64,000 nt of DNA from Paludibacteraceae bacterium. GTDB lineage: Bacteria > Bacteroidota > Bacteroidia > Bacteroidales > Paludibacteraceae. This document shows, piece after piece, positions 14,007-42,922 of this stretch. A program made the position numbers and the translations under genes. The number at the start of each line of letters is the position of its first letter. The first letter of the stretch is position 1. The notes below the pieces were generated by a model, which saw only the letters and a list, made by a program, of their open reading frames with translations, was not told the DNA's origin and searched no databases. The stretch lies in the NCBI GenBank assembly GCA_017630395.1, contig JAGBVI010000051.1, forward strand, positions 1 through 64,000. The letters are read 5' to 3'.

Positions 14007-14641
14007 ATTAGTGGCTTCCTAAAAAAGGCGGGAACAAAAGTTTCTCATCAAACTATTTACAATTTGATACATGCAGATGAAACAGGTGAATTAGCGTTCA
14101 ATACTCGTCATAAAATGAAGTACAGACGCAGGGCTTGCGTAAAACACATGCCTATCGCCAATCGAATAAGCATACACGAAAGACCGGTGGAGGCAGACGG
14201 AAATAGATTTGGAGATTGGGAAATGGATTTGATTGTGGATTCTTTCAATCATGCAATACTTACGTTAGTGGAACGCTCTACAAATATGTTGCTGATGCAA
14301 AGATTGCCTCAAGGGAAGAAATCAAAGCCTTTGGCTAAAGAGGTGTCTAGATTGCTTCTGCCCTACAGAAATACAATTAAGACCATAACCACCGACAATG
14401 GACCTGAATTCGCCGACCACTTGACAATAACAAAAAAAGATTGGTGTTACGGTATATTTTGCAGATCCTTATTCTTCTTGGCAGAAAGAATGTATAGAAA
14501 ATACTAACAAACTTATTAGACAATACATACCGAAAAAATCCAATTTCAATGACTTCTCTGAAGGTTATATCAAGAAGGTGCAGAAAAAGATTAATTTAAG
14601 ACCGAGAGAAAAATTGAATTTTTTCTATCTCTTGGCGTCTC
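14007..14641 (+). pseudogene. truncated, frameshifted IS30-family transposase
   Basis: A fossil of an IS30-type DDE transposase. The reading frame opens without a start at about 14007 (..KVSHQTIYNLIHADE) and carries the catalytic-core motifs GDWEMDLIV (first Asp) and TTDNGPEF (second Asp). It breaks at about 14440-14450 and continues in another frame with VYFADPYSSWQKECIENTNK (catalytic Glu) and a C-terminal arginine-rich helix. The N-terminal helix-turn-helix half is absent and no inverted repeats are evident. It abuts the 3' end of dinB. Confidence 0.85.
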
Positions 14642-15918: not shown

Positions 15919-16040
15919 ATGAAGAAAAGATTGTTTTGGGCAATGTTGCCTTTAGTGCCCATGCCTTTCTTCTCATGTGAAGACGACGAACCGTATATAG
16001 ACTTCTAAAACTCTATAAAGAAAAATGGACAGAAAAATAA
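15919..16040 (+). pseudogene. internally deleted copy of the metallopeptidase lipoprotein gene
   Basis: The first 25 codons (15919-15992) match the start of the gene at 16711 with one base change, giving MKKRLFWAMLPLVPMPFFSC and a few more residues. The copy then jumps to the last 10 codons of that gene (16011-16040, ending KWTEK) after an in-frame stop at 16006. About 1.5 kb is therefore missing. It still carries the promoter and overlaps the next lipoprotein gene exactly as the full copy does. Confidence 0.8.
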
Positions 16041-16492
16041 TATCTTTAATTTTTGTGTTAACGTCTCTAATAACGTTTTCTTCATGTGAGCCAAGTGATG
16101 TTGACGGATTACCTCAAGGAAAATATTATTTTATGATTATTAATAACACCTGCCAAAATGTTGCTATAGAGTGTCATACTACTTGGGAAGATTACGAAGA
16201 TTTTACAATTAACTTAGCGGCAGGAGACAGTGTTATTTACGAAGGATATCCTGATGGATTTGAATATATACAATTTCCTAAAGGAGAATTATACATCGTA
16301 TTCGATGATACTTTAAAATATTCTTGTTCATATGTGGATGAAGAAAAACCGTATTATTCTCAAATGTTAAAAGAAATACTAAATTTCGATTTTGTATTAG
16401 ATGGTCCTGATATTTATCTTAGGAGTTACGAAATCACCGAAAAGGAGTACGAATATGCCAAAGCGCATCCGTATAAATTCGAGGAGGAGTGA
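16025..16492 (+). CDS. small lipoprotein, paralogue of 18315-18791
   Basis: A 155-residue lipoprotein with the lipobox TFSSC (Cys21). It shares with the 158-residue paralogue an almost identical signal sequence (MDRKIISLIFVL), the motif FDDTLKYSC near the middle, and a nearly identical C-terminus (YEITEKEYEYAKAHPYK). The stretch between is divergent. Predicted to be a beta-rich periplasmic or surface protein of unknown role. The gene overlaps the C-terminal remnant of the preceding broken gene, mirroring the intact pair, so it was transcribed as the partner of that gene. Confidence 0.7.
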   Translation: MDRKIISLIFVLTSLITFSSCEPSDVDGLPQGKYYFMIINNTCQNVAIECHTTWEDYEDFTINLAAGDSVIYEGYPDGFEYIQFPKGELYIVFDDTLKYSCSYVDEEKPYYSQMLKEILNFDFVLDGPDIYLRSYEITEKEYEYAKAHPYKFEEE

Positions 16493-16710: not shown

Positions 16711-18330
16711 ATGAAGAAAAGATTGTTTTGGGCAATGTTGCCTTTAGTGGCCATGCCTTTCTTCTCATGTGAAGACGACGAACCAGATGTAGGATTTGAC
16801 CAATCGAGCCAGTTTCAAGAATTTCAAGCAGGAGAGATTCGGTTGGGAGAGAAAATCAACAGCCCCGTCACATTAAGAAACATGCAACGTGCAGCCGATT
16901 CTTTGGTACAACGCAATGGCATGGTTTTACGTTCTGCAACGCAATTGGAGGCAACTCACCTCTATGTGCGCTTCTTGCCACAGGACTCTGCAGAGTATGA
17001 ACTGTTGGTGAGCGATACCTTGCTGGATCCAACACCTTATCCATGGGATTATGAACTGACGGAAGGGGATAGTTACCACGATCCTTCATTGCCGCATGAT
17101 GCGTATCAATGGCAATATACCGTGATACCTGCGGAGCATGATTTGGAGCAGTACAATGTTCGGTATGAAGTATTGGAGGAACTCTATATGCCCAATGAAA
17201 TGTTTGATGAGGAGAGCAGCATCTCTACCCGAAGTACAAGCGAAGAAACAGCCTATCTAAAGGAGTTGCTCGATGAGTCTGTTCGTCAGAATGCTCCCGA
17301 CCAAATGGAATCAACAGAGACCTTGCGCAAATGGATACCTGCTGCAACGATTAAGGCATACGATGATATTTTGGATGCTTACATACCGTTGGACGGAGTG
17401 AAAGTGAGAATCACGACTTTTGCATTTGTAAAGAAAACAGCCATCACCAACATTTATGGACAGGTTAGTTTTGACAAGAGGAATCGGGATGTCTCTTACA
17501 GCATCGAGTGGGAGCGAGACAATTGGGATATTCGCGATGGTGGAACACAAGCCTATTACAATGGTCCCAATAACACTAAAAGCGCATGGAATTTGAATAT
17601 CGGCAAGGGAACTCCCAAGTCTCTACATATTTCTGCCATTCACAGAGCGTTGTTGAAGTATTATTATGGGAACATAGATGGACTGATACGTCCAAGCAAA
17701 GCCTTGAAAGTTTCGTACCAAGAAGGAGCAGACCCAGATGAAGAAGCGTTAGGCTCTACTCAATCAGCAATTGTTCGCACGTGGAGTTGGATATTTTCTG
17801 CCATTAAGATTTATGAAAAAAGACCTTCAGGACCAATTTGTACAGTAAGTCATATTCTATCCACCACTCTTCATGAATTAGCTCACGCTTCTCATTCATG
17901 CAGAATGAGTAAGGATGAATATGATAATACAAGCCTCTTTGTAAAAGAAAGTTGGGCAGTTGCGGCCGAATGGCATCTATCATTACATGAATACAAAAGA
18001 TTAGGTGCTAATTCGTATAAATTAGATTCGCTACATAGTGATAAAGCAGAACAATTTTGGCCATATTTAGGTCGTTCAGATATATATTCTCCAATGTTTA
18101 TTGATATGATAGACAATTTTAATCAGAAAAATTTATATTCAGACTATTTTTACATACCGGTTGATAATGTTGTTGGATATACTTTAGGTATGATTGATAA
18201 AAATTTAACTTCTATAAGAAATTATAATAACGTAGAATCATTCATGTTAAATAATATACCCTCAGGAGTTACAATTAATCAAATAAATGAATTTCTTAAA
18301 ATGTATAAAGAAAAATGGACAGAAAAATAA
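16711..18330 (+). CDS. lipoprotein with putative HExxH zinc metallopeptidase domain
   Basis: A 539-residue lipoprotein (lipobox FFSC, Cys20). Residues 20-210 are acidic and unrecognised, and about 215-275 looks like a carboxypeptidase-regulatory-like beta-sandwich (PLDGVKVRITTF..TNIYGQVSF). The C-terminal third holds TTLHELAHASH with His388, Glu389 and His392 as candidate zinc ligands and base, followed by KESWAVAAEW, whose Glu413 or Glu420 could be the third ligand of a gluzincin. That makes it a likely membrane-anchored peptidase, by inference only. Base composition drops in GC near 17750, inside the gene, as if the 3' part had another origin. It overlaps the next lipoprotein gene by 16 bp. 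Confidence 0.7.
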   Translation: MKKRLFWAMLPLVAMPFFSCEDDEPDVGFDQSSQFQEFQAGEIRLGEKINSPVTLRNMQRAADSLVQRNGMVLRSATQLEATHLYVRFLPQDSAEYELLVSDTLLDPTPYPWDYELTEGDSYHDPSLPHDAYQWQYTVIPAEHDLEQYNVRYEVLEELYMPNEMFDEESSISTRSTSEETAYLKELLDESVRQNAPDQMESTETLRKWIPAATIKAYDDILDAYIPLDGVKVRITTFAFVKKTAITNIYGQVSFDKRNRDVSYSIEWERDNWDIRDGGTQAYYNGPNNTKSAWNLNIGKGTPKSLHISAIHRALLKYYYGNIDGLIRPSKALKVSYQEGADPDEEALGSTQSAIVRTWSWIFSAIKIYEKRPSGPICTVSHILSTTLHELAHASHSCRMSKDEYDNTSLFVKESWAVAAEWHLSLHEYKRLGANSYKLDSLHSDKAEQFWPYLGRSDIYSPMFIDMIDNFNQKNLYSDYFYIPVDNVVGYTLGMIDKNLTSIRNYNNVESFMLNNIPSGVTINQINEFLKMYKEKWTEK

Positions 18331-18791
18331 TATCTTTAATTTTTGTACTAATAGCATCTATAACTTTACCATCTTGCGAGCCAAGTGACATTGATGGAGT
18401 TCCGTTGCAAGGGGAATGGTTGTACATGATTACCAATAAAACCAATCATAATGTAACCATAGAAATTGGGAATAATAGCCAAAGCAATCAACCCATTAAA
18501 TACGTCATTCTATCTCAAGATAGTATTATTAAGACAAGTGATATAGATGCTGCAGGGCGTCATGTTCCATTTGATGGATATCCCATTTACATTATATTTG
18601 ATGACACCTTAAGGTATAAATGTCCCTCATATATAACAGATAGGGAAAGTGTTTATGCTTCAATGATTTACCATTTAGCAAACTATACACTAATCATAGA
18701 TACTTTAGACATCCACCTCTATCGTTACGAAATCACCGAAAAGGAGTACGAATATGCCAAAGCGCATCCGTATAAACTTGAAGAGGAGTGA
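18315..18791 (+). CDS. small lipoprotein paired with the metallopeptidase lipoprotein
   Basis: A 158-residue lipoprotein, lipobox TLPSC (Cys21). The start overlaps the preceding gene by 16 bp, so the two are translationally coupled. It is a paralogue of 16025-16492: the first 12 residues and the last 25 or so are nearly identical and the middle differs. Conserved FDDTLRYKC and YEITEKEYEYAKAHPYK segments mark the family. The pairing suggests it works with, or restrains, the preceding protein, but nothing in the sequence proves this. Confidence 0.7.
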   Translation: MDRKIISLIFVLIASITLPSCEPSDIDGVPLQGEWLYMITNKTNHNVTIEIGNNSQSNQPIKYVILSQDSIIKTSDIDAAGRHVPFDGYPIYIIFDDTLRYKCPSYITDRESVYASMIYHLANYTLIIDTLDIHLYRYEITEKEYEYAKAHPYKLEEE

Positions 18792-27253: not shown

Positions 27254-28360
27254 ATGGCTTTACAATGTGGAATAGTAGGATTGCCCAATGTAGGTAAATC
27301 TACACTTTTTAATTGTCTATCAAACGCAAAAGCACAAGCTGCAAATTTTCCATTTTGCACAATAGAACCCAATGTAGGAGTTATCACTGTGCCAGATGAT
27401 AGATTAGTAAAATTAGAAGAGTTGGTACATCCTCAACGTGTACAACCAACAACAGTGGAAATTGTAGATATTGCCGGCTTGGTAAAAGGTGCTAGCAAAG
27501 GTGAAGGGTTAGGTAACAAATTTTTGGCAAATATTAGAGAAACCGATGCTATATTGCACGTTTTGAGGTGCTTCGACAATGAAAACGTAACCCACGTTGA
27601 TGGTAGCGTAAACCCTGTTCGCGACAAAGAAATCATAGATACTGAACTACAATTAAAAGATCTTGAAACTGTTGAAAGCAGAATACAAAAAATACAAAAA
27701 CAGGCGCAAACAGGAGGAGATAAAAACGCAAAAGCAGTTCATGAAGTGTTGATAAAATATCGCGATGCTCTAATGGCAGGAAAATCTGCCCGCGTGGTTG
27801 AGTTGACAAAAGAGGAAAAGGCCCTCGTTAAAGATGTCTATTTATTAACAACAAAACCCGTTTTGTATGTCTGCAATGTTGATGAAAAAAGTGCCGTAAA
27901 TGGTAATAAATATACAGAGGCTGTAGCAGAAGCCATCAAAGAAGAAAATGCTGAAATGCTTATTGTTGCTGCAGCTACAGAGGCTGATATTACAGAATTA
28001 GAGACATTTGAAGAGAGACAAATGTTTCTTGAAGAGGTAGGACTTACCGAATCAGGAGTGGTAAGACTTATCAAAGCTGCGTACAAATTGTTGGATTTAC
28101 AAACCTACTTCACTGCCGGAGTACAAGAAGTTAGAGCTTGGACCTTTATAAGAGGTATGAAAGCTCCTCAATGTGCCGGTATCATTCACTCAGACTTTGA
28201 AAAGGGCTTTATCCGTGCCGAAGTAATCAAGTATGAAGACTTTATTGAACTGGGTTCTGAAGCAGCTTGCAGAGAAGCAGGAAAAATTGCCATAGAAGGT
28301 AAGGATTATGTTGCGCAAGATGGTGATTTAATGCACTTTAGATTTAATGTGTCAAAGTAA
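27254..28360 (+). CDS. ychF: ribosome-associated ATPase/GTPase YchF
   Basis: A conserved Obg-family P-loop protein that prefers ATP and binds ribosomes, with a role in translation and oxidative-stress response. The 368 residues hold the Walker A GLPNVGKSTLFN (about 8-19), DIAGLVKGASKGEGLGN (about 71-87, switch II), a helical insert and a C-terminal TGS domain (AWTFIRGMKAPQCAG..GDLMHFRFNV). Everything is standard length and intact. It stands alone, with a terminator after it. Confidence 0.96.
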   Translation: MALQCGIVGLPNVGKSTLFNCLSNAKAQAANFPFCTIEPNVGVITVPDDRLVKLEELVHPQRVQPTTVEIVDIAGLVKGASKGEGLGNKFLANIRETDAILHVLRCFDNENVTHVDGSVNPVRDKEIIDTELQLKDLETVESRIQKIQKQAQTGGDKNAKAVHEVLIKYRDALMAGKSARVVELTKEEKALVKDVYLLTTKPVLYVCNVDEKSAVNGNKYTEAVAEAIKEENAEMLIVAAATEADITELETFEERQMFLEEVGLTESGVVRLIKAAYKLLDLQTYFTAGVQEVRAWTFIRGMKAPQCAGIIHSDFEKGFIRAEVIKYEDFIELGSEAACREAGKIAIEGKDYVAQDGDLMHFRFNVSK

Positions 28361-28394
28361 ATTTTTCATAATCATATTATTTTAAAATTGAATG

Positions 28395-28433
28395 TGTGTT
28401 ATCGGCTGTGAAGTTGGTAACACATTTTTTTTT
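28395..28433 (+). terminator. ychF terminator
   Basis: Arms TGTGTTA (28395-28401) and TAACACA (28418-28424) with a 16-nt loop, then nine T. Confidence 0.75.
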
Positions 28434-28943
28434 CTGAAAATCGGTTAAAATCTCGATAAATAGTAACAATACTAATTATAATTCTTAAAGTGAACTCTAT
28501 AATTTTACCTTAAAAAACTGTTAATGAATGAACAAATTTTGTGAAGAACATTGTTAATAAATTATTAATTAATTTAGAATAAAATCCTTACTTAATATTT
28601 TGTAAAAAATAAAATTTAGATATACAATCATCTATTTCAAATTAACAAATTATTTATCCTTTTTTTTTAGAAAAGTATTAACCGTTTTTTTACCATGTCT
28701 AATTCTAAAAATTTCAATTTTATTTGTAAATTTGCCTATGTGTTGAATTTGTTAATAAAGTGGTTAAATATTTATATTTCAACTATTTAATTTTAACAAT
28801 TTAAGGTTTACATTGTAAATCAATTCTTAATAACAATATATGCAAGAATTATTTAATAAATGTTTCAACCTTTTCAACAGCCTTTATTATATTTATTAAT
28901 TATTTTTTTAATATATATATATTTTTAAAATTTAAATAATAAA
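28434..28943. other. AT-rich gap, candidate replication origin (oriC)
   Basis: This 510-bp stretch has no gene. It is extremely AT-rich, with a run of alternating AT and T-tracts at 28885-28940 that could unwind easily. It contains two identical 9-mers TGTTAATAA (28552-28560, 28750-28758) and a near copy TGTTAATGA (28519-28527), each two or three bases from the DnaA box TGTGGATAA. By eye, plus-strand genes left of it are A-rich, while everything to the right up to 42 kb is T-rich on the plus strand whichever strand codes. No canonical DnaA box is present. Confidence 0.4.
28487..28511. repeat. short quasi-palindromic repeat, copy 4
   Basis: AAAGTGAACTCTATAATTTT followed by ACCTT. A degenerate family member, 3' of ychF. 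Confidence 0.4.
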
Positions 28944-29891
28944 ATGAAAGAGAGTGTTGAATTAAAAAATAAAATTTTAGAACTTAAGAAAGAAAGAAAC
29001 GCTGTTATAATGGCTCACTACTATACTATTGGAGAGATTCAAGATATTGCTGATTTTGTTGGTGACAGCCTTTATTTAGCTCAAAAAACTGCTACTACTG
29101 ATGCTGACGTAATTGTTATATGTGGTGTTCATTTTATGGGAGAAACAGCTAAAATTCTTTCGCCAGATAAGGTTGTTTTGGTACCTGATGCTTCTGCGGG
29201 ATGTTCTTTAGCTGATAGTTGTGATGCTACTGAGTTTAAAACTTTTATTGATGAACACCCCGGTTATAAAGTTCTTTCTTATGTCAACACTACTGCTGCC
29301 GTGAAAGCTTTAACTGATGTTGTTGTTACCTCTTCTAATGCTATTCAAATTGTTGAAAGTTTTCCTAAAGATGAGAAAATCATTTTTGGTCCTGATAGAA
29401 ATTTAGGTAATTATATCAATTCTGTTACCGGTAGAAATATGCTTTTGTGGAATGGGTATTGTCATGTTCATGAGCAATTTTCTATTCGTAAATTACTCGC
29501 TCTAAAAGAGATTTACCCTAATGCAAAACTTTTGGTTCATCCAGAATGTAAAGATTCAATTGTTAAGTTGGCAGATTGTGTAGGATCTACTGCTGCATTG
29601 TTAAAATTTGCTGTTAATTCTGATGTCAACGAGTTTTTAGTTGCAACCGAAGCTGGTATTTTACATGAGATGAAAAAGCAAGCTCCTGATAAACTATTTA
29701 TTCCTGTACCGCCTGAAGATAGCAGCTGTTCTTGCAATGATTGTTCTTATATGAAATTGAATACGCTTGAAAAACTATATGCTTGTTTAAAGAGTAATCA
29801 ACCTGAAATTAAGGTAGATTCCGCTATTTTAGATCGTTCCAGACTACCTATTGTGAAGATGCTTGAAATTAGTGAAAAGTTAGGTTTATAG
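28944..29891 (+). CDS. nadA: quinolinate synthase A
   Basis: An iron-sulfur enzyme that condenses iminoaspartate with dihydroxyacetone phosphate in NAD synthesis. The 315 residues show AHYYTIGEIQDIADFVGDSL (about 24-43), GVHFMGETAKIL (about 73-84), DASAGCSLADSC (about 95-106, cluster cysteine), HPECKDSIVKLADCVGST (about 199-216) and the C-terminal CSCNDCSYMKLNT. First of three rightward genes (nadA-mazG-deoC). No nadB or nadC nearby. Codon use is strikingly T-rich compared with genes to the left. Confidence 0.95.
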   Translation: MKESVELKNKILELKKERNAVIMAHYYTIGEIQDIADFVGDSLYLAQKTATTDADVIVICGVHFMGETAKILSPDKVVLVPDASAGCSLADSCDATEFKTFIDEHPGYKVLSYVNTTAAVKALTDVVVTSSNAIQIVESFPKDEKIIFGPDRNLGNYINSVTGRNMLLWNGYCHVHEQFSIRKLLALKEIYPNAKLLVHPECKDSIVKLADCVGSTAALLKFAVNSDVNEFLVATEAGILHEMKKQAPDKLFIPVPPEDSSCSCNDCSYMKLNTLEKLYACLKSNQPEIKVDSAILDRSRLPIVKMLEISEKLGL

Positions 29892-32411: not shown

Positions 32412-35177
32412 ATGAAAAATAAATTATTTCTTATTGATGCTTATGCATTGATTTATAGGTCATATTATGCCTTTATTAAAAATCCTAGGTTTAATTCAAA
32501 GGGGTTTAATACTTCTGCAATTTTGGGTTTTGTGAATGTTTTAGAAGAAATTTTAAAAACAGAATCTCCTTCTCATATTGCTGTTGCTTTTGATCCTTCC
32601 GGACCTACTTTTAGGCATGAAGCTTACGAAGAGTATAAAGCTCAAAGAGAGGCAACTCCTGAAGATATCAAATTGTCTGTACCTATTATAAAACAGATTG
32701 TTACAGCTTATAATATTCCTATTTTAGAGGTTCCTGGTTTTGAGGCTGATGATGTTATTGGTACTATTTCAAAACTTGCTGAGGAATCTGATTTTAATGT
32801 TTTTATGCTGACTCCTGATAAGGATTATGCTCAATTGGTTTCTGATAATGTCTTTATTTATAGACCCAGACATGGAGGTGGGTATGAAACGTTAGATGTT
32901 CAGGGTGTAAAAGATAAATGGGGTATTTCATCTCCTGCTCAGGTTATCGATCTTTTGGGCTTAATGGGTGATTCTTCTGACAATATTCCTGGTTGTCCGG
33001 GAGTGGGGGAGAAAACTGCCGTTAAATTATTAAATGATTTTAATTCTATAGATAATTTATTAAATTCTACTGATTCTTTAAAAGGTGCTTTAAAACAAAA
33101 AATTATTGATAATTGTGAAAAAATTAGGTTTTCAAAGTTTTTAGCCACAATAAGAACTGATGTTCCTATAGAATTTTCACCTGATAAATTTTTATTGAAG
33201 ACACCTGATAAAAATTCACTTTGTGAAATATTTTCTGAATTAGAATTTAAGTCACTTTTAAAAAAATATTCGGGAGATAAGAAATCATCTCAGAAAGTGG
33301 ATCTTCAACCCTCTCTCTTTGATGAATTCCTTGATGAAGATACAGGAATTTTCAAATATTCAAATCTCAGCGAGTTAAATTTGTCTGAAATTAAGTACCA
33401 ATTAATTGATAATCAGACTGATATGGGCGAATTTTTGCTTAAAATTTCTACTCAGGATTTTTTCTGTTTTGACGTAGAAACAACAGGAATTAGCCCTTAT
33501 TGTGATGAATTAGTAGGAATTTCCTTTAGTTGGGTTAAAAACGAAGCTTATTTTATTCTTCTTCCTATTGATAGATTAGAAGCAGAAAATTTTCTACGTC
33601 AGTTAAAGCCACTTTTCAGTAATGAGTCTAAATTAAAAATTGGTCAGAATTTGAAATTTGATATTTCCTTTCTTGAGAGTTATGGTATTTCAGTGAAGGG
33701 TCCTTTTTTTGATACGATGATTGCTCACTATTTATTGCAACCTGAACTTAAGCATAATTTAGATTATTTGGCAGAGGTATTTTTGAACTACAAAATGATT
33801 TCATACGAAGATTTGTGCGGAGAGAAGGGTAGGGGGCAGTTACCAATACGTTCTGTTTCCAAAGAAGCTTTGACTAATTATGCTTGTGAAGATGCTGATA
33901 TTACTTTGCAACTTAAATCTATATTAGAGCAGCAAATTCATACAGAAAATCTTGATTATCTATTTTATAATATTGAATTGCCTTTGCTTTCTGTTCTTAT
34001 AGATGTCGAGAGGGCAGGAGTTTCATTGGATGTTGTTTCGTTATCTTCTTCATCAAAGTTACTTACAACAAAGATGAATGAAATTGAGAAACATGTTTTT
34101 GATTTAGTAGGTTTTGAATTTAATCTTTCCTCTCCAAAGCAAGTAGGAGAAGTTATTTTTGATAAATTACAAATAATTGAAAATGCGAAAAAAACTAAAA
34201 CTGGTCAATATTCTACGTCTGAAGAAGTTTTAGAATCATTGCGAGGTAAGCATCAAGTTATTGATTATATATTGGAGTATAGAGGAATTAAGAAATTATT
34301 ATCCACTTATATTGATTCTTTACCCCTTTTACTAAATTCAAAAACGCATAAACTGCATACAAGTTTCAATCAATGTATTACATCAACTGGAAGGTTAAGT
34401 TCAAGTAACCCAAATTTACAAAATATTCCGATAAGGGATGAATTAGGAAAAGAGGTTAGGAAAGCCTTTATTTCTGATCAAAATTGTTATTTTTTGTCTG
34501 CTGATTATTCACAGATAGAATTAAGAATAATGGCTCATTTAAGTGAGGATGAAAATTTAATTGAAGCATTTCAATCTGGTTATGACATACACTCTGCTAC
34601 AGCTGCAAAAATTTTCAAAGTACCTTTAGATGAAGTTACATCAGATATGAGAAGAAAAGCAAAAACTGCAAACTTTGGTATTATTTATGGAATTTCCGTT
34701 TTCGGATTAGCAGAGAGATTATCTATTCCACGTTTCGAAGCCAAGGAGTTAATTGATGGATATTTTTCTTTATATCCTAAGGTAAAAGATTATATGAGTA
34801 ATATTATTTCTTCTGCCAAAGATAAAGGTTATGTTCAAACTCTTTTTAATAGAAAAAGATTTCTTCCAGATATTAATTCACGAAATAGTGTTGTTAGAGG
34901 TTTTTCGGAGAGAAATGCAATTAATGCTCCAATACAAGGAACAGCTGCAGATATTATTAAACTTGCGATGGTTAATATACATAATAGATTTATATCTGAA
35001 AAATTACAATCAAAGATGATTTTACAGGTTCATGATGAGTTGAATTTTAATGTTGTAGGGGAGGAGTTGGATATTGTTAAATCAATAGTTATTTCCGAAA
35101 TGGAGTCAGTTATACAATTAAAAGTTCCTTTAGAAGTTGAGTGTGGAGTAGGGAAGAATTGGTTAGAAGCGCATTAA
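32412..35177 (+). CDS. polA: DNA polymerase I
   Basis: A repair and Okazaki-fragment polymerase of 921 residues with all three domains. The 5' nuclease is at about 1-290 (LIDAYALIYRSYYAF, then FEADDVIGT and DSSDNIPGCPGVGEKTA). The 3'-5' proofreading domain (about 330-510) begins with an intact FDVETTG exonuclease motif I. The polymerase domain (about 545-921) has SADYSQIELR (motif A), the O-helix RRKAKTANFGIIYG (motif B) and LQVHDELNF (motif C). The gene is unusually AT-rich, like the whole 29-42 kb block. Confidence 0.97.
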   Translation: MKNKLFLIDAYALIYRSYYAFIKNPRFNSKGFNTSAILGFVNVLEEILKTESPSHIAVAFDPSGPTFRHEAYEEYKAQREATPEDIKLSVPIIKQIVTAYNIPILEVPGFEADDVIGTISKLAEESDFNVFMLTPDKDYAQLVSDNVFIYRPRHGGGYETLDVQGVKDKWGISSPAQVIDLLGLMGDSSDNIPGCPGVGEKTAVKLLNDFNSIDNLLNSTDSLKGALKQKIIDNCEKIRFSKFLATIRTDVPIEFSPDKFLLKTPDKNSLCEIFSELEFKSLLKKYSGDKKSSQKVDLQPSLFDEFLDEDTGIFKYSNLSELNLSEIKYQLIDNQTDMGEFLLKISTQDFFCFDVETTGISPYCDELVGISFSWVKNEAYFILLPIDRLEAENFLRQLKPLFSNESKLKIGQNLKFDISFLESYGISVKGPFFDTMIAHYLLQPELKHNLDYLAEVFLNYKMISYEDLCGEKGRGQLPIRSVSKEALTNYACEDADITLQLKSILEQQIHTENLDYLFYNIELPLLSVLIDVERAGVSLDVVSLSSSSKLLTTKMNEIEKHVFDLVGFEFNLSSPKQVGEVIFDKLQIIENAKKTKTGQYSTSEEVLESLRGKHQVIDYILEYRGIKKLLSTYIDSLPLLLNSKTHKLHTSFNQCITSTGRLSSSNPNLQNIPIRDELGKEVRKAFISDQNCYFLSADYSQIELRIMAHLSEDENLIEAFQSGYDIHSATAAKIFKVPLDEVTSDMRRKAKTANFGIIYGISVFGLAERLSIPRFEAKELIDGYFSLYPKVKDYMSNIISSAKDKGYVQTLFNRKRFLPDINSRNSVVRGFSERNAINAPIQGTAADIIKLAMVNIHNRFISEKLQSKMILQVHDELNFNVVGEELDIVKSIVISEMESVIQLKVPLEVECGVGKNWLEAH

Positions 35178-35191
35178 TCTTTTATTACCTA

Positions 35192-35222
35192 ACTGCTCGA
35201 TTTTAATCGAGCAGTTTTTTTT
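35192..35222 (+). terminator. polA terminator
   Basis: A perfect stem ACTGCTCGA/TCGAGCAGT (35192-35215) with a short AT loop, then eight T. Confidence 0.85.
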
Positions 35223-35237
35223 GTTCAACGTGAAACA
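35222..35237. other. parS-like site 1
   Basis: TGTTCAACGTGAAACA, one base from the 16-bp chromosomal centromere TGTTCCACGTGAAACA bound by ParB. It directly follows the polA terminator. Confidence 0.75.
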
Positions 35238-35702
35238 TATTTTTTTATTTAATTTAAAAAATTTTTAAAATTTATTTCGAATATATTTTACGTTTTTTTT
35301 TAAAAAAAAGGATTACTTTTTTTATTCTTTTGCAGTTAATAGTACTTTTTTTTTCAAAATAAAATTGTTTAAATTAACTAAATAGCATCTTGATGAGCTA
35401 GAAAATGATAGAGTAAAACTCAAAAATAAATTAATAATAAAATTTTAACTACTTCTTAGTAATTTTAAATGCAATTCTTGTATCATATCAACTATTTTTT
35501 TTTTTATTTTTTTAAGGATGATTTTTTTTATTTAATAATCTAAATATGTTATTAATTTTATTGAAGAAGTTATAATTTAGAAATAATTACCCGTAATTTT
35601 TATATAAAATATATCCGACTTCTATTGGTAGTTTTTATATATTGGTTTATCTATAATATATTTTTTAGTCTATTAAATATTATTTTTATGTATATTTTTA
35701 TA

Positions 35703-35718
35703 TGTTCCACGTGAAACT
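35703..35718. other. parS-like site 2
   Basis: TGTTCCACGTGAAACT, one terminal base different from the parS consensus. Confidence 0.8.
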
Positions 35719-35868
35719 TTTATTGTATAATTTTAAAAATATCGTTGTATAAAATTTTAATAGCTTCAATAGAGTAGGAATATATATTTAGTTACTTCTA
35801 TTTTAAAATTATTTAGTATTTTTTTAGTTTTATCAGAGAAATATTTTAAAGATTTTTTATTAATGCAT

Positions 35869-35913
35869 GAGACTATTATTAAATAGTAAATTTTATAGTT
35901 TAATAATAGTCTC
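35869..35913. repeat. 15-bp perfect inverted repeat
   Basis: Arms GAGACTATTATTAAA and TTTAATAATAGTCTC with a 15-nt AT loop. No T-run follows that would mark a normal terminator. Confidence 0.7.
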
Positions 35914-36103
35914 AAAATTGTGTTGTAGAAGAGTGAGACTCAAATTTTTAGTGTATTTGTAATTAATTTAACTACTCTTTAATATTTTTTACTCTCTTAC
36001 ATGTTTCTACTGTTCTTTCTTTTATCTTAGTAATTTCTTCTAATTAATTTAGAAATTTCACGAAATCTATTTATATATCTGTTATTTTAGTAATTTTTAT
36101 ATA

Positions 36104-36119
36104 TGTTCCACGTGAAACA
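36104..36119. other. parS site 3
   Basis: TGTTCCACGTGAAACA, an exact match to the parS consensus, four bases before the dusB stop codon. Confidence 0.9.
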
Positions 36120-36122
36120 TTC

Positions 36123-37112
36123 TTAATAATTAATATTATAATCCTTTTCTATATTGTCTATTAGTTCAAATAATTCTTTTTTAGTATCTGCTCTAAGTAT
36201 TTTTATTTTTGTTTGTTTGAAATGATCTATTCCCTTGAATAGGGGAGTAGCAGCGATATGTCTTCTAGAATGTAATATTCCTCTGATTTCATCTGCTCTT
36301 TCTATATTATTTTCAACTTGTTCCTTTAGTATTTCTAAATAGAATTTAAAGTTTTTTCTTTCTAATTTACTATTATTGTATAAGTAATGTTTTATTTCTT
36401 CAAAAATCCAAGGTTGCCCAATACTACCTCTACCTATCATAATTGCATCTACTCCATATTTATCAAAGCATTCTTTTGCTCTTTCAGGAGTTGTAATATC
36501 TCCGTTTCCAATGATAGGAATTTTAATGCGTGGATTATTTTTAACCTCTTCAATTAAAGTCCAGTCGGCTTCTCCTGTGTACATTTGAGCTCTTGTTCTT
36601 CCATGAATAGTGATAGCTTGAGCACCATTGTCTTGTATTTGTTCTGCAATAGTAGTAATTATTTTACTATTATTATCCCAACCTAATCTTGTTTTAACAG
36701 TAATAGGTATGCTTACATTTTTAGCCACACTATTAATGATTTCCATCATCTTAGGTATATCTTTTAATAAACCTGCACCTCCACCTTTCCCAGCTACTTT
36801 TTTTACAGGACACCCAAAATTTAAATCAATTATATCAGGTTTAGCACTTTCTGCAATTTTAGCAGCTTCAGTAATTGATTCTACATCTCTACCATATAAT
36901 TGAATTGCTACAGGTCTCTCTTGGTCATATATCTCTAACTTTCTTTCAGTGCTTTTAATGCTTCTTATAAGTGCATCAGATGATATAAATTCTGAATAGA
37001 CCATATCTGCTCCAAATCTTTTACATAATAATCTAAATGCAGGATCTGTAACATCCTCCATAGGAGCTAAAAATACAGGATATTTTTCAAATTCAATATT
37101 TCCTATTTTCAT
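36123..37112 (-). CDS. dusB: tRNA-dihydrouridine synthase
   Basis: A flavin enzyme that reduces uridines in the tRNA D-loop. The 329 residues form a TIM barrel with LAPMEDVTDPAFRLLCKRFG (about 15-34), IDLNFGCPVKKVAGKGGGAG (about 95-114, catalytic Cys), TVKTRLGW (about 138-145) and TIHGRTRAQMYTG (about 168-180). DusB-like, since Bacteroidota usually have one such gene. Third-position composition is A-rich on the coding strand, consistent with a gene on the lagging strand. A parS site lies on each side. Confidence 0.93.
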   Translation of the reverse strand: MKIGNIEFEKYPVFLAPMEDVTDPAFRLLCKRFGADMVYSEFISSDALIRSIKSTERKLEIYDQERPVAIQLYGRDVESITEAAKIAESAKPDIIDLNFGCPVKKVAGKGGGAGLLKDIPKMMEIINSVAKNVSIPITVKTRLGWDNNSKIITTIAEQIQDNGAQAITIHGRTRAQMYTGEADWTLIEEVKNNPRIKIPIIGNGDITTPERAKECFDKYGVDAIMIGRGSIGQPWIFEEIKHYLYNNSKLERKNFKFYLEILKEQVENNIERADEIRGILHSRRHIAATPLFKGIDHFKQTKIKILRADTKKELFELIDNIEKDYNINY

Positions 37113-37120
37113 ATAAATTT

Positions 37121-37136
37121 TGTTTCACGTGGAACA
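37121..37136. other. parS site 4
   Basis: TGTTTCACGTGGAACA, the exact reverse complement of site 3, in the 24-bp gap between the U32 gene and dusB. Confidence 0.9.
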
Positions 37137-38405
37137 TTATTGATTGTTTGGAACTTCCGATGCATCAACCATTTTATATACTTTGTCAGATGGTCTGACT
37201 TTACAAGGAACTTTGATGGAAAATAATTCACCCCTTTCACATCTGGAGGCAGGATGATTATCTACATGCATTTCATCAACTTTTACTTCAATTACTCCCG
37301 TTGTTGGTCCCGTAATCAGTAATTCATCACCTATATTGATACCGTATTTTGTTTCAACTAAAAATTCACCAACACCAATTTTAGAAAAATATTTTAAACT
37401 TTTTCCAACATATACTTTTCTTTTTGTTGCTTCTGATCCATAAGTAGAACTCCATTCTCCTAATCTCTGTCCTAAATAATAACCATTCCAAAAACCACGA
37501 TTGAATACAGTTTTTAATTTTTCGTCCCACTCTGAAATCTTCTCTTCGCTGAATGTTCCATCTAAGTAAGAGTTGATAGCTTCATTATAACAACTTACAA
37601 CTCTCTTTACATATTCAGGTCCTCTTGCTCTACCTTCTATCTTAAATACTCTAACTCCTGAATCAATCAATTTATTGATGAAATGGATAGTTTTTAAATC
37701 TTTCGGCGACATCAAATACTTGTTGTCAACCTTAATTTCAATATCCCTTTCATCGTCAATTAATCTGTATGCATGTCGACATACTTGGTAACAAGCACCT
37801 CTATTGGCAGATGCATTTAACTCATGCAAACTTAAATAACATTTTCCGGATACTGCCATACAAAGTGCTCCATGACAAAACATCTCTATCTTTATCAATT
37901 CTCCTTTAGGACCTTTAATATTCTCCTCTTTAATTTGTTTCCAAATTGCTGATACCTGATCCATATTTAATTCCCTTGCCAATACAACTACATCTGCATA
38001 TTGAGAATAAAATTTTAAAGCATCTACATTGGCAATATTCAACTGCGTGGATAGATGAACTTCAACCCCAACTTTATATGCATATAACATGGCTGCTACA
38101 TCTGCTGCTATAATTGCACTTACTTCAACCTCCTTTGCAGTATCAATGATTTTTCTCATCATATCTAAATCATCGTTGTAGATTACAGTGTTGACAGTTA
38201 AATAGCTCTTGATGTTATTTTCTTTGCATATCTTTACTATTTCTCGTAAGTCATCTGTGGTAAAATTACTGGCAGAGCGAGAACGCATGTTCAAATTTTC
38301 TATGCCGAAATAGACCGAATTTGCTCCTGATTCGATGGCTGCCATCAAACTTTCATAGGAACCAACCGGTGCCATTATTTCAAAATCAGATCTTTTGTGT
38401 TCCAT
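37137..38405 (-). CDS. U32-family peptidase-like protein (TrhP/YegQ type)
   Basis: A U32 protein of 422 residues. Members of this length in E. coli (YegQ/TrhP) take part in prephenate-dependent hydroxylation of tRNA U34; others act on rRNA (RlhA). Motifs: MAPVGSYESLMAAIESGANSVYFG (starting near residue 11), VHLSTQLNIAN (about 116-126) and the signature EMFCHGALCMAVSGKCYLS (about 173-191) with its conserved cysteines, then a C-terminal beta-barrel. It lies 2 bp from dtd in one leftward operon. A tRNA-modification role is inferred from family. Confidence 0.88.
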   Translation of the reverse strand: MEHKRSDFEIMAPVGSYESLMAAIESGANSVYFGIENLNMRSRSASNFTTDDLREIVKICKENNIKSYLTVNTVIYNDDLDMMRKIIDTAKEVEVSAIIAADVAAMLYAYKVGVEVHLSTQLNIANVDALKFYSQYADVVVLARELNMDQVSAIWKQIKEENIKGPKGELIKIEMFCHGALCMAVSGKCYLSLHELNASANRGACYQVCRHAYRLIDDERDIEIKVDNKYLMSPKDLKTIHFINKLIDSGVRVFKIEGRARGPEYVKRVVSCYNEAINSYLDGTFSEEKISEWDEKLKTVFNRGFWNGYYLGQRLGEWSSTYGSEATKRKVYVGKSLKYFSKIGVGEFLVETKYGINIGDELLITGPTTGVIEVKVDEMHVDNHPASRCERGELFSIKVPCKVRPSDKVYKMVDASEVPNNQ

Positions 38406-38868: not shown

Positions 38869-40689
38869 TTATTTATTTTCTTTATGGAAATATTGAAAGA
38901 TTATTTGCGCTTTGCTATTTCCTATTTCATTTTCTAATTCATTAATACTCAATTCTTTAATTCTTTTTACGCTCTTAAAACGTTTAATTAATTGCTCCCT
39001 TGTCTTGGGACCAATTCCCTTTATTTCTAATTCACTTTTAACTTGATTTTTGCTCCTTTTTTCTCGATGAAATTTTATCGCATATCTGTGAACTTCATCC
39101 TGAATAGAGGCAAAAAATCGAAATACTTCATCGTTCGGGTCCATTCCTACAACTTTTGGAGGAAAACCAAATAACAATTCTTTTGTCTTATGTTTTTCGT
39201 TTTTTGCCAATCCGGCTATAGGTATCGAAAGTTTTAACTCATCTTCTATCACTTCTCTTATCACTTCCATTTGTCCTATTCCACCATCCGCAATAATTAA
39301 CTGAGGTAGGGGAGACTCCTCTTCTATAAGCCTGGTATATCTTCTTCTTACAACTTCTCTCATTGAAGCATAATCGTCCGGACCTACTACACTCTTAATG
39401 TTGTACTTTCGATAATCTTTCTTTGAAGGTTTTGCCATTTTATATACAACACACGCAGCAACTGCGTCGCTTCCTTGTATGTTTGAGTTATCAAAACACT
39501 CAATCTGTATAGGTAAATTATTGAGCTTCAATAAATTACGAATATTGTTAAGTAATTTTGCTGCTCTTTGTTCCGGATTAAATTTTTCTCTCTGTTTAAG
39601 TCTGTCAAACTTATATTGTTTTACATTCTGAATTGATAAATCCAACAATTTCTTTTTGTCGCCACGTTGAGGGACAGTAATTGTTACACCATTTAATTCA
39701 TAATTAATATCAAAAGGCAATAAAATCTCTTTTGATTGACTTTTAAATCTATTTCTTAATTCAATGATAGCACTTGCAAGAATTTCCTCTTTTTCCTCTT
39801 CTGTTCTGATTTTATACTCTAACGTGTAGGCTTGAGTAATAGTGCCGTTTGTCACTTTTAAGTAGTTTATAAAAGCGTCACTATCATCAATTTCTATAGC
39901 GAAAGTATCAATATTAGTCAGCAGAGGATTAACAATGGTTGATTTAGATTTATATTGAGCTAAAATTTCTAATTTTTCTTTCACTTTTTGAGCCTTTTCA
40001 AACTCTAAATTTTCAGCATAACTAATCATCTCTTTTTTCAAGTCATCTTCTATTTCACTGATTTCTCCTTTTAAGATCGACTTAATTTTTTTTATGTTTT
40101 CATCGTATTCTTCTCGGCTTTGCAAACCTTCGCAGCATCCTGCACATTTTTTGATATGGTATTGCAAACAAACCTTGTAATTTTTTCGATGAATACTTTC
40201 CGAGGTAAGATCTAACTTGCAAGTTCTAAGAGGAAAAATTTGTTCTATAAGTTCCAAAATTGTTTTAATGGCAGGACCATACGTGTAGGGACCATAATAT
40301 TTAGAACCATCCTTGACAAGATTTCTTGTTTTAAAAACGCGTGGAAAAAACTCGTTTTTTATACAAATCCAAGGATAAGTTTTTCCATCTTTAAGTAAAA
40401 TATTGTAGCGAGGCTGAAATTTTTTAATCAAACTATTTTCAAGCAGAAGAGCATCTTGTTCATTCTCAACGACAATATATTTTATGTCATGAATTTGTTT
40501 GACCAAGACCTTAGTTTTAACACTTTGCTGCTCTTTGTTAAAATAAGAAGAAACCCTCCGTTTAAGATTTTTTGCCTTTCCAACGTAGATTATTTCCTCT
40601 TTTTCATTCAAATATTGGTATATACCCGGACTTTCCGGGAGTGATAAAACTATCTGTTTAAGAGGTGATATTTCTTTTGTATTTATCAT
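38869..40689 (-). CDS. uvrC: excinuclease ABC subunit C
   Basis: The dual-incision nuclease of nucleotide excision repair. The 606 residues include the GIY-YIG domain ([20 protein letters not shown], about 18-37), a UVR motif (about 205-240), the RNase H-like 5'-incision domain ([21 protein letters not shown], about 380-480) and C-terminal helix-hairpin-helix repeats ([19 protein letters not shown]). Its start overlaps the mnmG stop by 4 bp, so the two are coupled. Confidence 0.96.
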
Positions 40690-42560
40690 CTTCCCATCAA
40701 AATCAAAAGAATATTTATGTCGCTCGGGGAAATTCCCGGGATTCTACTTGCTTGTCCTATTGTTTCCGGATCAATTTTTTCCAATTTTTGTCTTGCCTCT
40801 GTAGAGAGAGATTTTAACGTTGAGTAATCAAATTTTCCTTTAATTTTGATATTTTCCAAACGTTGTAACTTATTGGCTATCAATGTTTCTCTTTCTATAT
40901 ACCCTTTGTATTTAATTTGAATTTCGCTCGCTTCAATAATCTCTTCTTTACGGTTTGGAATTTTTTCAAGCGTATTTTTTAATGCAGGAATAGTTTCTGT
41001 AAGGATTTCGATGTTCAGTTGAGGTCTCATTACCAAATCAACCAATTTGCATCCATTTTTCAGCGCTGTTGTTCCCTTACTTTCAAGAAAATCATTAATA
41101 TAAGCCGGTTTTATCGAATAATTATTGATGAAATCGGTAATTCTTTCTATCTCATTTTTCTTTTCGTTGTAAAGGTGAAATCTCTCCTTAGTAGCCAAAC
41201 CAATTTTATAAGATTTTTCTGTCAATCTGCTATCTGCATCATCCTGTCTTAATAGAATACGATATTCGGCGCGAGAAGTAAACATTCTGTAGGGTTCATC
41301 AACACCTTTGGTAACTAAATCGTCGATGAGAACGCCAATATATGCTTCGTCTCTATGCAAAATAAATGGATCTCCACCATGACAATTAATGTGCGCATTT
41401 ATACCGGCAATCAATCCCTGACCTGCAGCCTCTTCATATCCTGTTGTACCATTTACCTGACCTGCCAAAAATAGATTTTTTATTAATTTTGACTCCAAAG
41501 TATGATTTAGTTGTGTTGGGTCGAAGTAATCATATTCAATAGCATATCCCGGTCTGTATATCACAGCATTTTCCAATCCTTTAATTGTTTTAAGAGCTTC
41601 CAACTGAATGTTGAGAGGAAGAGATGAGGAAAAACCATTTAGATAATATTCTTGAGTTGTTTCTCCCTCCGGTTCTAAAAATAGTTGGTGTCTCTCTTTC
41701 TCGGAGAATGTCACTATTTTTGTCTCAATACTTGGGCAGTATCTAGGACCAATACTTTGAATTTGTCCGTTATACAAAGGAGAATCCGGTAATCCTTTTC
41801 TTAAAATCTCATGTGTTATTTCGCTCGTGTAGGTTATATAACAACTTTTTTGTTCTAAAGGTCTCGGTTTAAAATCGAGGTAAGAAAATTTGTGAAAATC
41901 GTTCTCTCCATCTTGTTTATCCATGCAAGAAAAATTGATGGTTCTTCCGTCAATTCTTACCGGTGTACCCGTTTTCATTCGATCTGTTTTAATACCATAC
42001 TGAGCAAGTTGCTCTGTAATTCCGTATGAAGCAGGTTCTGAGATACGACCGGCATGAATTTGAGTCTTACCGCAATGTATTAAGCCTGTAAGAAATGTAC
42101 CGGCAGTTAATATAGCGCATTTACACTCAAACTCAGCTCCCATGGAAGTTATCACACCTTTAATCTCACCATCTTTTATAATAAATTGATTTACAGTATC
42201 TTGCCAAATATTTAGGTTATCAGTATTCTCCAAAACTGATCTCCACATTTCGCTAAATTTTTGGCGATCAGCTTGAGAGCGCGGACTCCACATGGCAGGA
42301 CCTTTTGATCTATTAAGCATTCTATATTGAATAGCAGTCATATCTGTGATAATACCACATTGACCGCCCAATGCATCAATTTCTCGAACAATTTGCCCCT
42401 TTGCAATTCCACCGATAGCCGGATTACAGCTCATTTGAGCAATCTTATGCATATCCATGGTTATCAAAAGAGTTTTTGATCCAAGATTAGCAGCAGCTGC
42501 TGCAGCTTCACATCCGGCGTGGCCGGCTCCAATCACAATAATGTCGTACTTAAAGATCAT
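40686..42560 (-). CDS. mnmG: tRNA uridine 5-carboxymethylaminomethyl modification enzyme MnmG (GidA)
   Basis: The FAD enzyme that with MnmE modifies wobble U34 of tRNA. I use the ATG at 42560 ([16 protein letters not shown]), giving 624 residues, the family norm; an open extension of 48 codons upstream is basic and Cys-rich and spans a promoter box. Motifs: [10 protein letters not shown] (about 11-20, dinucleotide binding), [30 protein letters not shown] and [16 protein letters not shown] (about 365-380). gidA lies beside oriC in many bacteria, which fits the parS sites 5 kb away. Confidence 0.96.
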
Positions 42561-42601
42561 ATTTTTACCTTTTAAAGGGGCATAACACTTCAATATCGTT
42601 A

Positions 42602-42609
42602 CAAAATTA
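42602..42609 (-). promoter_or_regulatory. mnmG promoter box
   Basis: Minus-strand TAATTTTG, 42 bp 5' of the ATG chosen for mnmG; the -33 region is not convincing. Confidence 0.4.
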
Positions 42610-42831
42610 CAGTTTTTTTGTGAAATTGCGAGATTATTAACAAAATATGAACAAGTTTTCAACTTTATCGAGCAAATACCCCGGTATTTTACATAATTCT
42701 TCATTCTATTTTGAGAGTATTTTCATTATATCTGTAATAAAAATTCTTACTATTTCCTACTTTTTGTAAATTAATATATTCTTTTAATGTTATTTTGTTT
42801 TATAAAAAGGGTTGTATTGGATAAATTTTGT

Positions 42832-42839
42832 TATTTTTG
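42832..42839 (+). promoter_or_regulatory. maeB promoter box
   Basis: TATTTTTG, a match to TAnnTTTG, 84 bp 5' of the maeB ATG. Confidence 0.4.
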
Positions 42840-42922
42840 TGCCGAAAAACATATTATGATTTAAAATTAGATAATTTAGTTCGTTGGATAAACGAGTTAA
42901 ATTTCTGTAAAACAATAAAAAA

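Follow-up and report, generated by a model that had tools for sequence, protein, structure and literature searches.

What is the function of four nearly identical 16-bp palindromes that lie within 1.9 kb of one another, around polA and dusB, in a draft Bacteroidales genome? The window analyzed here covers the first 64,000 nucleotides of contig C31 (105 kb) in this draft (3,566,168 bases in 128 contigs; 99.8% complete). A preliminary description had read the palindromes as parS centromere sites, two exact and two with one altered base, in non-coding DNA, and we found all four where it had placed them. Compared with the parS consensus TGTTYCACGTGRAACA, itself a 16-bp palindrome, site 1 (35222..35237, forward strand; TGTTCAACGTGAAACA) has one mismatch and overlaps the T-run end of a terminator-like hairpin after polA. 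Site 2 (35703..35718, forward strand; TGTTCCACGTGAAACT) also has one mismatch. Site 3 (36104..36119, forward strand) is an exact TGTTCCACGTGAAACA separated by 3 bp from the stop codon of dusB. Site 4 (37121..37136, reverse strand), likewise an exact TGTTCCACGTGAAACA, takes up the greater part of the 24 bp that separate dusB from a gene for a U32-family protein. All four are thus intergenic. Sites 1–3 fall inside the polA–dusB gap (35178..36122; 945 bp, 17.9% G+C), with the 3′ ends of polA and dusB at sites 1 and 3, respectively.

The clustering is far from what base composition would produce. When up to three mismatches were allowed, the 16-mer gave eight strand-wise matches at these four places in the window, against a mean of 0.55 and a maximum of 3 in shuffled sequence. 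At one mismatch or fewer, the 3.57-Mb draft genome contained no place other than these four, so that the whole-genome search proposed in the preliminary description returned a single cluster and no scattering; the reversed pattern, used as a control, gave no match in the whole draft. Three places with two mismatches lie elsewhere (on contigs C14, C37, and C105). One of these, C37:112503, is near parB; we set it aside, as three such sites outside the cluster are about what rough arithmetic predicts by chance. In the closest relative (G006), sites 2–4 align as nearly or fully identical blocks within an otherwise diverged gap: the 16-mers of sites 2 and 4 are identical, and 15 of the 16 bases of site 3 are kept. 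G006 also has a site after polA, an exact TGTTCCACGTGAAACA, which does not align with site 1 of the window.

The genes around the sites were named by NCBIfam search (polA, dusB, the U32-family gene, uvrC, mnmG, mreB, and gyrB), whereas nadA, dtd, deoC, ychF, maeB, and the like are provisional names, given by the look of the sequences. The forward strand carries the nadA-like open reading frame (28944..29891) and polA, encoding DNA polymerase I (32412..35177; NF004397/TIGR00593, over cut-off). On the reverse strand follow dusB, encoding tRNA dihydrouridine synthase B (36123..37112; TIGR00737, over cut-off; nearest matches 72–78% identical, their names pointing to a Paludibacteraceae-like host), the gene for the U32-family, TrhP/UbiU-like protein (37137..38405; NF011996 and NF047963, both below cut-offs), uvrC (38869..40689; TIGR00194, over cut-off), and mnmG, also called gidA (40686..42704; TIGR00136, over cut-off). 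Between 28000 and 40000, around the putative origin, G+C content is 25–33% in 2-kb steps, compared with 33–41% in the remaining window. Farther left, an open reading frame at 14064–14507 resembles a transposase fragment, presumably with an IS30-type integrase core, and two similar short lipoprotein-like open reading frames (16025–16492 and 18315–18791), both starting with MDRKIISLIFVL, flank a larger gene and probably represent a duplication.

A parS cluster calls for a ParB to read it. The genome encodes one ParB (TIGR00180, E 1.8e-54, over cut-off), on contig C37, whose nearest structures in the PDB are Spo0J/ParB chains. A ParA-like gene, with family matches below the curated cut-offs, adjoins parB just upstream. 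The parS-reading residues of ParB are R173 and G201 (numbering and roles as given in PMC7383237), and an alignment with Caulobacter ParB, in which positions 173 and 201 (Caulobacter numbering) were fixed via the GKxR motif, showed that the equivalents of both are present. The ParB homolog and its ParA-like neighbor, for which the preliminary description had asked, thus exist, and together with the unique parS cluster and the two reading residues they bear out its proposal that the organism uses a canonical ParABS. Against this reading, parAB, on C37, shows no linkage to the parS sites; dnaA, too, lies on another contig (C116). The same separation is seen in G016, a relative assembled as one contig of 3,685,504 bp, in which parS lies at 2,536,363–2,536,440, parB at 1,718,238, and dnaA at 181–1539; parAB is about 0.82 Mb and dnaA about 1.15 Mb from parS.

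What the sequence shows directly is the four sites and their uniqueness, a ParA-like gene and a ParB gene, the reading residues of ParB, the origin-like skew described below, and the conservation in relatives. From these observations we conclude, with a probability of about 0.93, that the only detected chromosomal ParABS has its parS centromere at the four sites, within the origin region of the chromosome of a Bacteroidales (Paludibacteraceae-like) organism. The sites are most likely the places where the segregation protein of this gut bacterium grips the newly copied chromosome, a centromere of a known kind and an ordinary, well-supported parS cluster. Binding, spreading, and segregation at the sites are inferred by analogy with established ParABS work. 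ParB dimers would bind CTP and load as clamps at the palindromes; the clamps would slide outward across polA, dusB, and adjacent genes, and nucleoid-bound ParA-ATP would draw the two sister origins, each coated with ParB, away from each other shortly after replication of the region.

Does the window indeed lie in the origin region, as the preliminary description had claimed? It has already been published that in Bacteroidota dnaA does not indicate where the origin lies (PMC10197239; PMC4755523). We examined base composition. Cumulative GC skew of the window is lowest at 42760, which is also the minimum for the 105-kb contig, and is driven partly by gene direction. Over the same contig, cumulative A–T skew reaches its maximum at 28649 and the G+T measure its minimum at 27948. 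At fourfold-degenerate sites, tabulated for 41 chosen reading frames, A–T skew is positive in all 17 genes tested between 3326 and 28360 and takes values of −0.61, −0.49, −0.38, and −0.31 in the next four; it is mixed from dusB to mnmG and negative in 14 of 15 genes tested beyond mnmG. GC skew at fourfold sites is negative up to 32246 and then near zero or mixed, with no switch at 28533–28935. In G016, a step fit of GC skew, based on 36 sampled 20-kb stretches, of which 16 formed a single block around parS, was best with the origin at the position of parS (2.54 Mb) and almost as good with it at 2.52, 2.50, or 2.58 Mb; the fit depends on this dense sampling near parS. The best fit of coding-strand bias lay elsewhere, at 2.64 or 2.12–2.20 Mb. 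The skews of the contig itself and of G016 thus support placement in the origin region, but the measures partly disagree.

Where in this region might replication start? We consider it probable, with moderate confidence, that the start corresponds to a conserved, AT-rich, non-coding element at 28533..28935 (forward strand), 6.3 to 8.2 kb to the left of the parS sites. This candidate occupies most of the ychF–nadA gap (28361–28943), which is 583 bp long and AT-rich and in which fourfold A–T skew changes sign; the A–T skew maximum of the contig falls inside the element itself. The A–T and G+T measures of the contig and the GC minimum of G016 are consistent with a strand-composition switch at the element, and the GC minimum of the contig and fourfold GC skew are not. 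Over ungapped columns, the gap is 95% identical to its G006 counterpart, compared with 93% for nadA, 95% for the mnmG–maeB gap, and 69% for the polA–dusB gap. In 13 distinct sequences of the clade, some 420 bp ahead of nadA can be aligned with one another, and a profile was built from this nadA-upstream DNA (15 sequences, two duplicates dropped). It matched the window element with an E-value of 1.6e-53, the window sequence itself being in the profile, and a held-out genome, G016, with an E-value of 1.9e-28 at 2,525,156–2,525,545. The G016 element is 983 bp from the cumulative GC-skew minimum (2,524,173) of a 320-kb block, 6.4 kb from the G+T minimum (2,518,726), and 10.8 kb from parS; the A–T skew extremes over the 320 kb are 54 and 107 kb away from it. 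The element also carries a recurrent box, TTATYAACA (TGTTRATAA), which occurs 31 times in the 8.4 kb of 16 element stretches and 46 times in the other 352 kb, compared with a mean of 1.1 and a maximum of 6 in 200 letter shuffles. These counts are to be read with the motif having been chosen after viewing the alignment and with the 16 stretches being related, one of them having no box and the window copy only two. By contrast, TTATNCACA occurs three times in the 16 stretches and is absent from the element of the window; in the window as a whole it does not cluster (two exact copies, 3.8 expected). A search for clusters of E. coli-consensus DnaA boxes, by the thresholds used, returned none at the parS sites or in the 105-kb contig.

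The element might instead serve nadA alone, as its promoter or leader RNA, with oriC elsewhere, for example in the mnmG–maeB gap (42705–42922), an explanation that we regard as less likely. The profile was, after all, made from nadA-upstream DNA, and its held-out match in G016 also adjoins nadA; the mnmG–maeB gap contains the GC-skew minimum of the contig and is as well conserved in G006 as the ychF–nadA gap. However, in two further held-out genomes, G004 and G009, the element lies 415–490 bp from deoC, which leaves no space for nadA between them and argues against a nadA leader. Moreover, no Rfam family matched anywhere in 26–44 kb, the element included, up to an E-value of 1, and the position of the A–T skew maximum, together with the reversal of fourfold A–T skew on passing the element, speaks for more than a leader.

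The polA–dusB gap could itself be oriC, with the palindromes as part of it. It contains the lowest-GC 500-bp stretches of the window, and fourfold GC skew leaves its negative values nearby. However, neither its length nor its sequence is conserved: the gap is 520 bp in G006, in which it is the diverged one of the regions compared above, and, by match ends, about 80 bp in G001, G007, G009, G010, and G015 and about 390 bp in G004. As it also has no cluster of DnaA boxes and is far less well conserved than the ychF–nadA gap, we rejected this explanation as improbable and retain the ychF–nadA element as the candidate origin.

We then asked where relatives keep their centromeres. Among 61 genomes, the present one included, 46 have a site within one mismatch of the window 16-mer; the other 15 have none, which counts against the parS reading. 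Among the 30 loci listed around such sites in relatives (L010–L039), mnmG lies within the 1.5-kb flank in 22, while seven are in the uvrC–dtd–U32–dusB–polA genes and one (L012) is in neither. A phylum-wide sample gave a similar picture: an exact TGTTYCACGTGRAACA occurs in 87 of 118 genomes (reversed control, 1 of 118), and mnmG is in the flank of 26 of the 29 new loci listed, the exceptions being L165, L167, and L174. In several genomes of this sample, two sites are spaced by 1.9 kb, which equals the length of mnmG, and we take these pairs to flank mnmG. That the palindromes are targets of some other regulator controlling polA, dusB, or the U32 gene, as their closeness to gene ends might suggest, is very improbable, since the same 16-mer adjoins differing genes in relatives (mnmG, uvrC, dtd, U32, dusB, and polA), has no further place in the genome at one mismatch or fewer, lies behind polA and dusB, at their 3′ ends, in sites 1 and 3, and deviates from the published parS consensus no more than is usual for parS.

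The parS sites of the window, in contrast to the prevailing arrangement, lie 3.5 to 5.5 kb past the 3′ end of mnmG, beyond uvrC and around dusB; there is no room for a site between mnmG and uvrC because the two genes overlap by 4 bp. Among 80 dusB loci from named genomes, 11 have sites within one mismatch of the consensus. Ten of these have dusB in the company of polA, uvrC, or further block genes; the eleventh (L083) has a lone one-mismatch site. L109 has polA near dusB yet no site. The occurrence of the sites is therefore not tied to dusB itself. We also mapped 21 genomes of the family besides the window, a set that overlaps with the dusB loci, as L045/L197, L090/L203, L041/L193, and L042/L196 look like the same records. 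parS is between mnmG and uvrC in G016, G017, G021, G024, G026, G033, G035, and G036, and 3′ of mnmG in G028. G018 and G019 have sites both at uvrC–dtd and around dusB; G034 has them between uvrC and U32 as well as inside the U32 match, with none at dusB. Eight mapped genus mates of the window genome (the stretch of G002 being cut inside dusB) and G020 have parS around dusB only. As one G019 site is also inside the U32 match, some sites in relatives are not intergenic. In G018, G019, G020, and G034, mnmG was not found within 6–7 kb beyond uvrC; parS there therefore goes with uvrC–polA and not with mnmG.

In a UvrC tree of 24 genomes, the 13 genomes with the block arrangement fall on one side of a single branch (support 99/98), so that one change of arrangement suffices, compared with a mean of 8.2 when arrangements were shuffled. 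The tree is unrooted, includes only three order-level rows from outside the family, and omits G028, for which the stretch contained no uvrC; G020 was assigned to the middle group, though its parS pattern is that of the window genus. The simplest reading is a single relocation, with parS in the uvrC–U32–dusB–polA block in one Paludibacteraceae-like clade.

We also considered the 15 genomes without a canonical site. A degenerate consensus at one mismatch gave sites in three of them (G043, G044, and G053), and its reversed control matched equally many (3 of 15). Of these sites, that of G043 and one in G044 are at an mnmG end, and no mnmG flanks the one in G053. As for the other 12, mnmG is absent from eight assemblies at an E-value of 1e-60, and in G008 and G012 the mnmG contig ends in or soon after mnmG. 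Two genomes are left, G030 and G037, and both carry variant palindromes. That of G030, TGTTCCGCGCGGAACA (C13:209377–209392), begins 15 bp beyond the point where the mnmG match stops. No other perfect 16-bp palindrome occurs in 20 kb, and the genome has no second exact copy; at two mismatches or fewer, the palindrome is as frequent as its reversed control (3 and 3). It is present in the G030 loci L218 and L283 and also in L227. G037 has two TTTTCACGTGAAAA palindromes on its mnmG contig (L288; C32:2163 and 2763), one of them directly before the mnmG start, and none in about 205 kb of other G037 stretches; L281 is listed beside G037 for the same palindromes.

The ParB proteins of these two genomes are themselves exceptional. 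ParB is over cut-off in 58 of the 61 genomes, which formed the residue survey (the G031 ParB is a fragment, G027 and G047 gave no match, and a G045 fragment was left out). R173 is kept in 57 of the 58 proteins, the exception being Asn in G037, and G201 in 56, the exceptions being Ala in G030 and G055. Both residues have been reported as absolutely conserved in extant ParB orthologs, with R173 bonding guanine 1 and position 201 bearing on base 6 (PMC7383237). With this base numbering placed on the 16-mer, base 1 is altered in the TTTTCACGTGAAAA of G037 and base 6 in the TGTTCCGCGCGGAACA of G030. The notion that a changed parS follows from Ala201 alone was rejected, as G055 combines this residue with canonical parS. 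Against a joint change of ParB and parS stand this G055 pairing, the single site of G030, and the small number of cases, just two. At slightly less than even odds, we tentatively propose that the centromere of Bacteroidota is mostly anchored at mnmG and served by ParB without Smc–ScpAB, that within the order ParB and parS may have been naturally re-specified together in G037 (Asn173/base 1) and G030 (Ala201/base 6) at two contacts reported as absolutely conserved, and that the lineage of the window may have moved a canonical centromere.

The origin region and centromere of a draft Bacteroidales genome could thus be placed from its sequence. As dnaA is a poor guide, mnmG suggests itself as a simple anchor for finding the centromere in many Bacteroidota drafts. 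The lineage of the window offers a centromere that appears to have moved relative to its genes, the oriC candidate of 0.4 kb is small enough for a plasmid test, and the two natural ParB–parS pairs of G030 and G037 bear on how centromere recognition changes. Beyond an ordinary parS cluster, the analysis would add the location by mnmG, the apparent relocation, the putative oriC, and these two exceptional pairs. A literature search by titles and abstracts yielded nothing on mnmG–parS linkage in Bacteroidota or on natural exceptions at R173 or G201, which is no proof of absence.

How does this system compare with known ones? The chromosomal ParABS of Bacillus, Caulobacter, and others uses the same 16-bp palindrome, clustered near the origin, and has likewise one ParB, with a GERR-type motif and the helix-turn-helix residues, and an adjoining ParA-like gene. 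Unlike in these bacteria, parAB is here far from parS. A second difference concerns Smc–ScpAB, which ordinarily partners ParB and is loaded by it. In the 61 Bacteroidales genomes, the present one included, no Smc (TIGR02168) was over cut-off and no ScpA (PF02616) was found, while the same ScpA profile matched 9 of 14 controls. All 61 gave Smc matches that were weak (E-values up to 0.001), none of which we accepted as a real Smc; most of those listed fall in the middle profile columns, presumably the coiled coil, and some in short end stretches. Therefore, ParB here probably acts through ParA, and a loop extruder beside ParB–ParA, if any, is probably of some other kind.

Closer parallels exist within Bacteroidota. 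A Hi-C study of the OMM12 community described parS clusters that mark the skew-defined origin, not always together with dnaA, in Bacteroides caecimuris and Muribaculum intestinale, and reported no known condensin homolog in these two Bacteroidetes (PMC10197239); our system resembles theirs in both respects. The main text of that study does not use the words mnmG, gidA, nadA, or oriC, and the mnmG position, the apparent shift to the dusB–polA genes, and the putative oriC are additions of the present analysis. For Prevotella intermedia, Ori-Finder with E. coli DnaA boxes found a multi-box locus (PMC4755523, citing DoriC). Unlike that locus, the candidate element here has TTATYAACA boxes and few TTATNCACA, but the origin of the Bacteroidetes described there is, as here, unlinked from dnaA.
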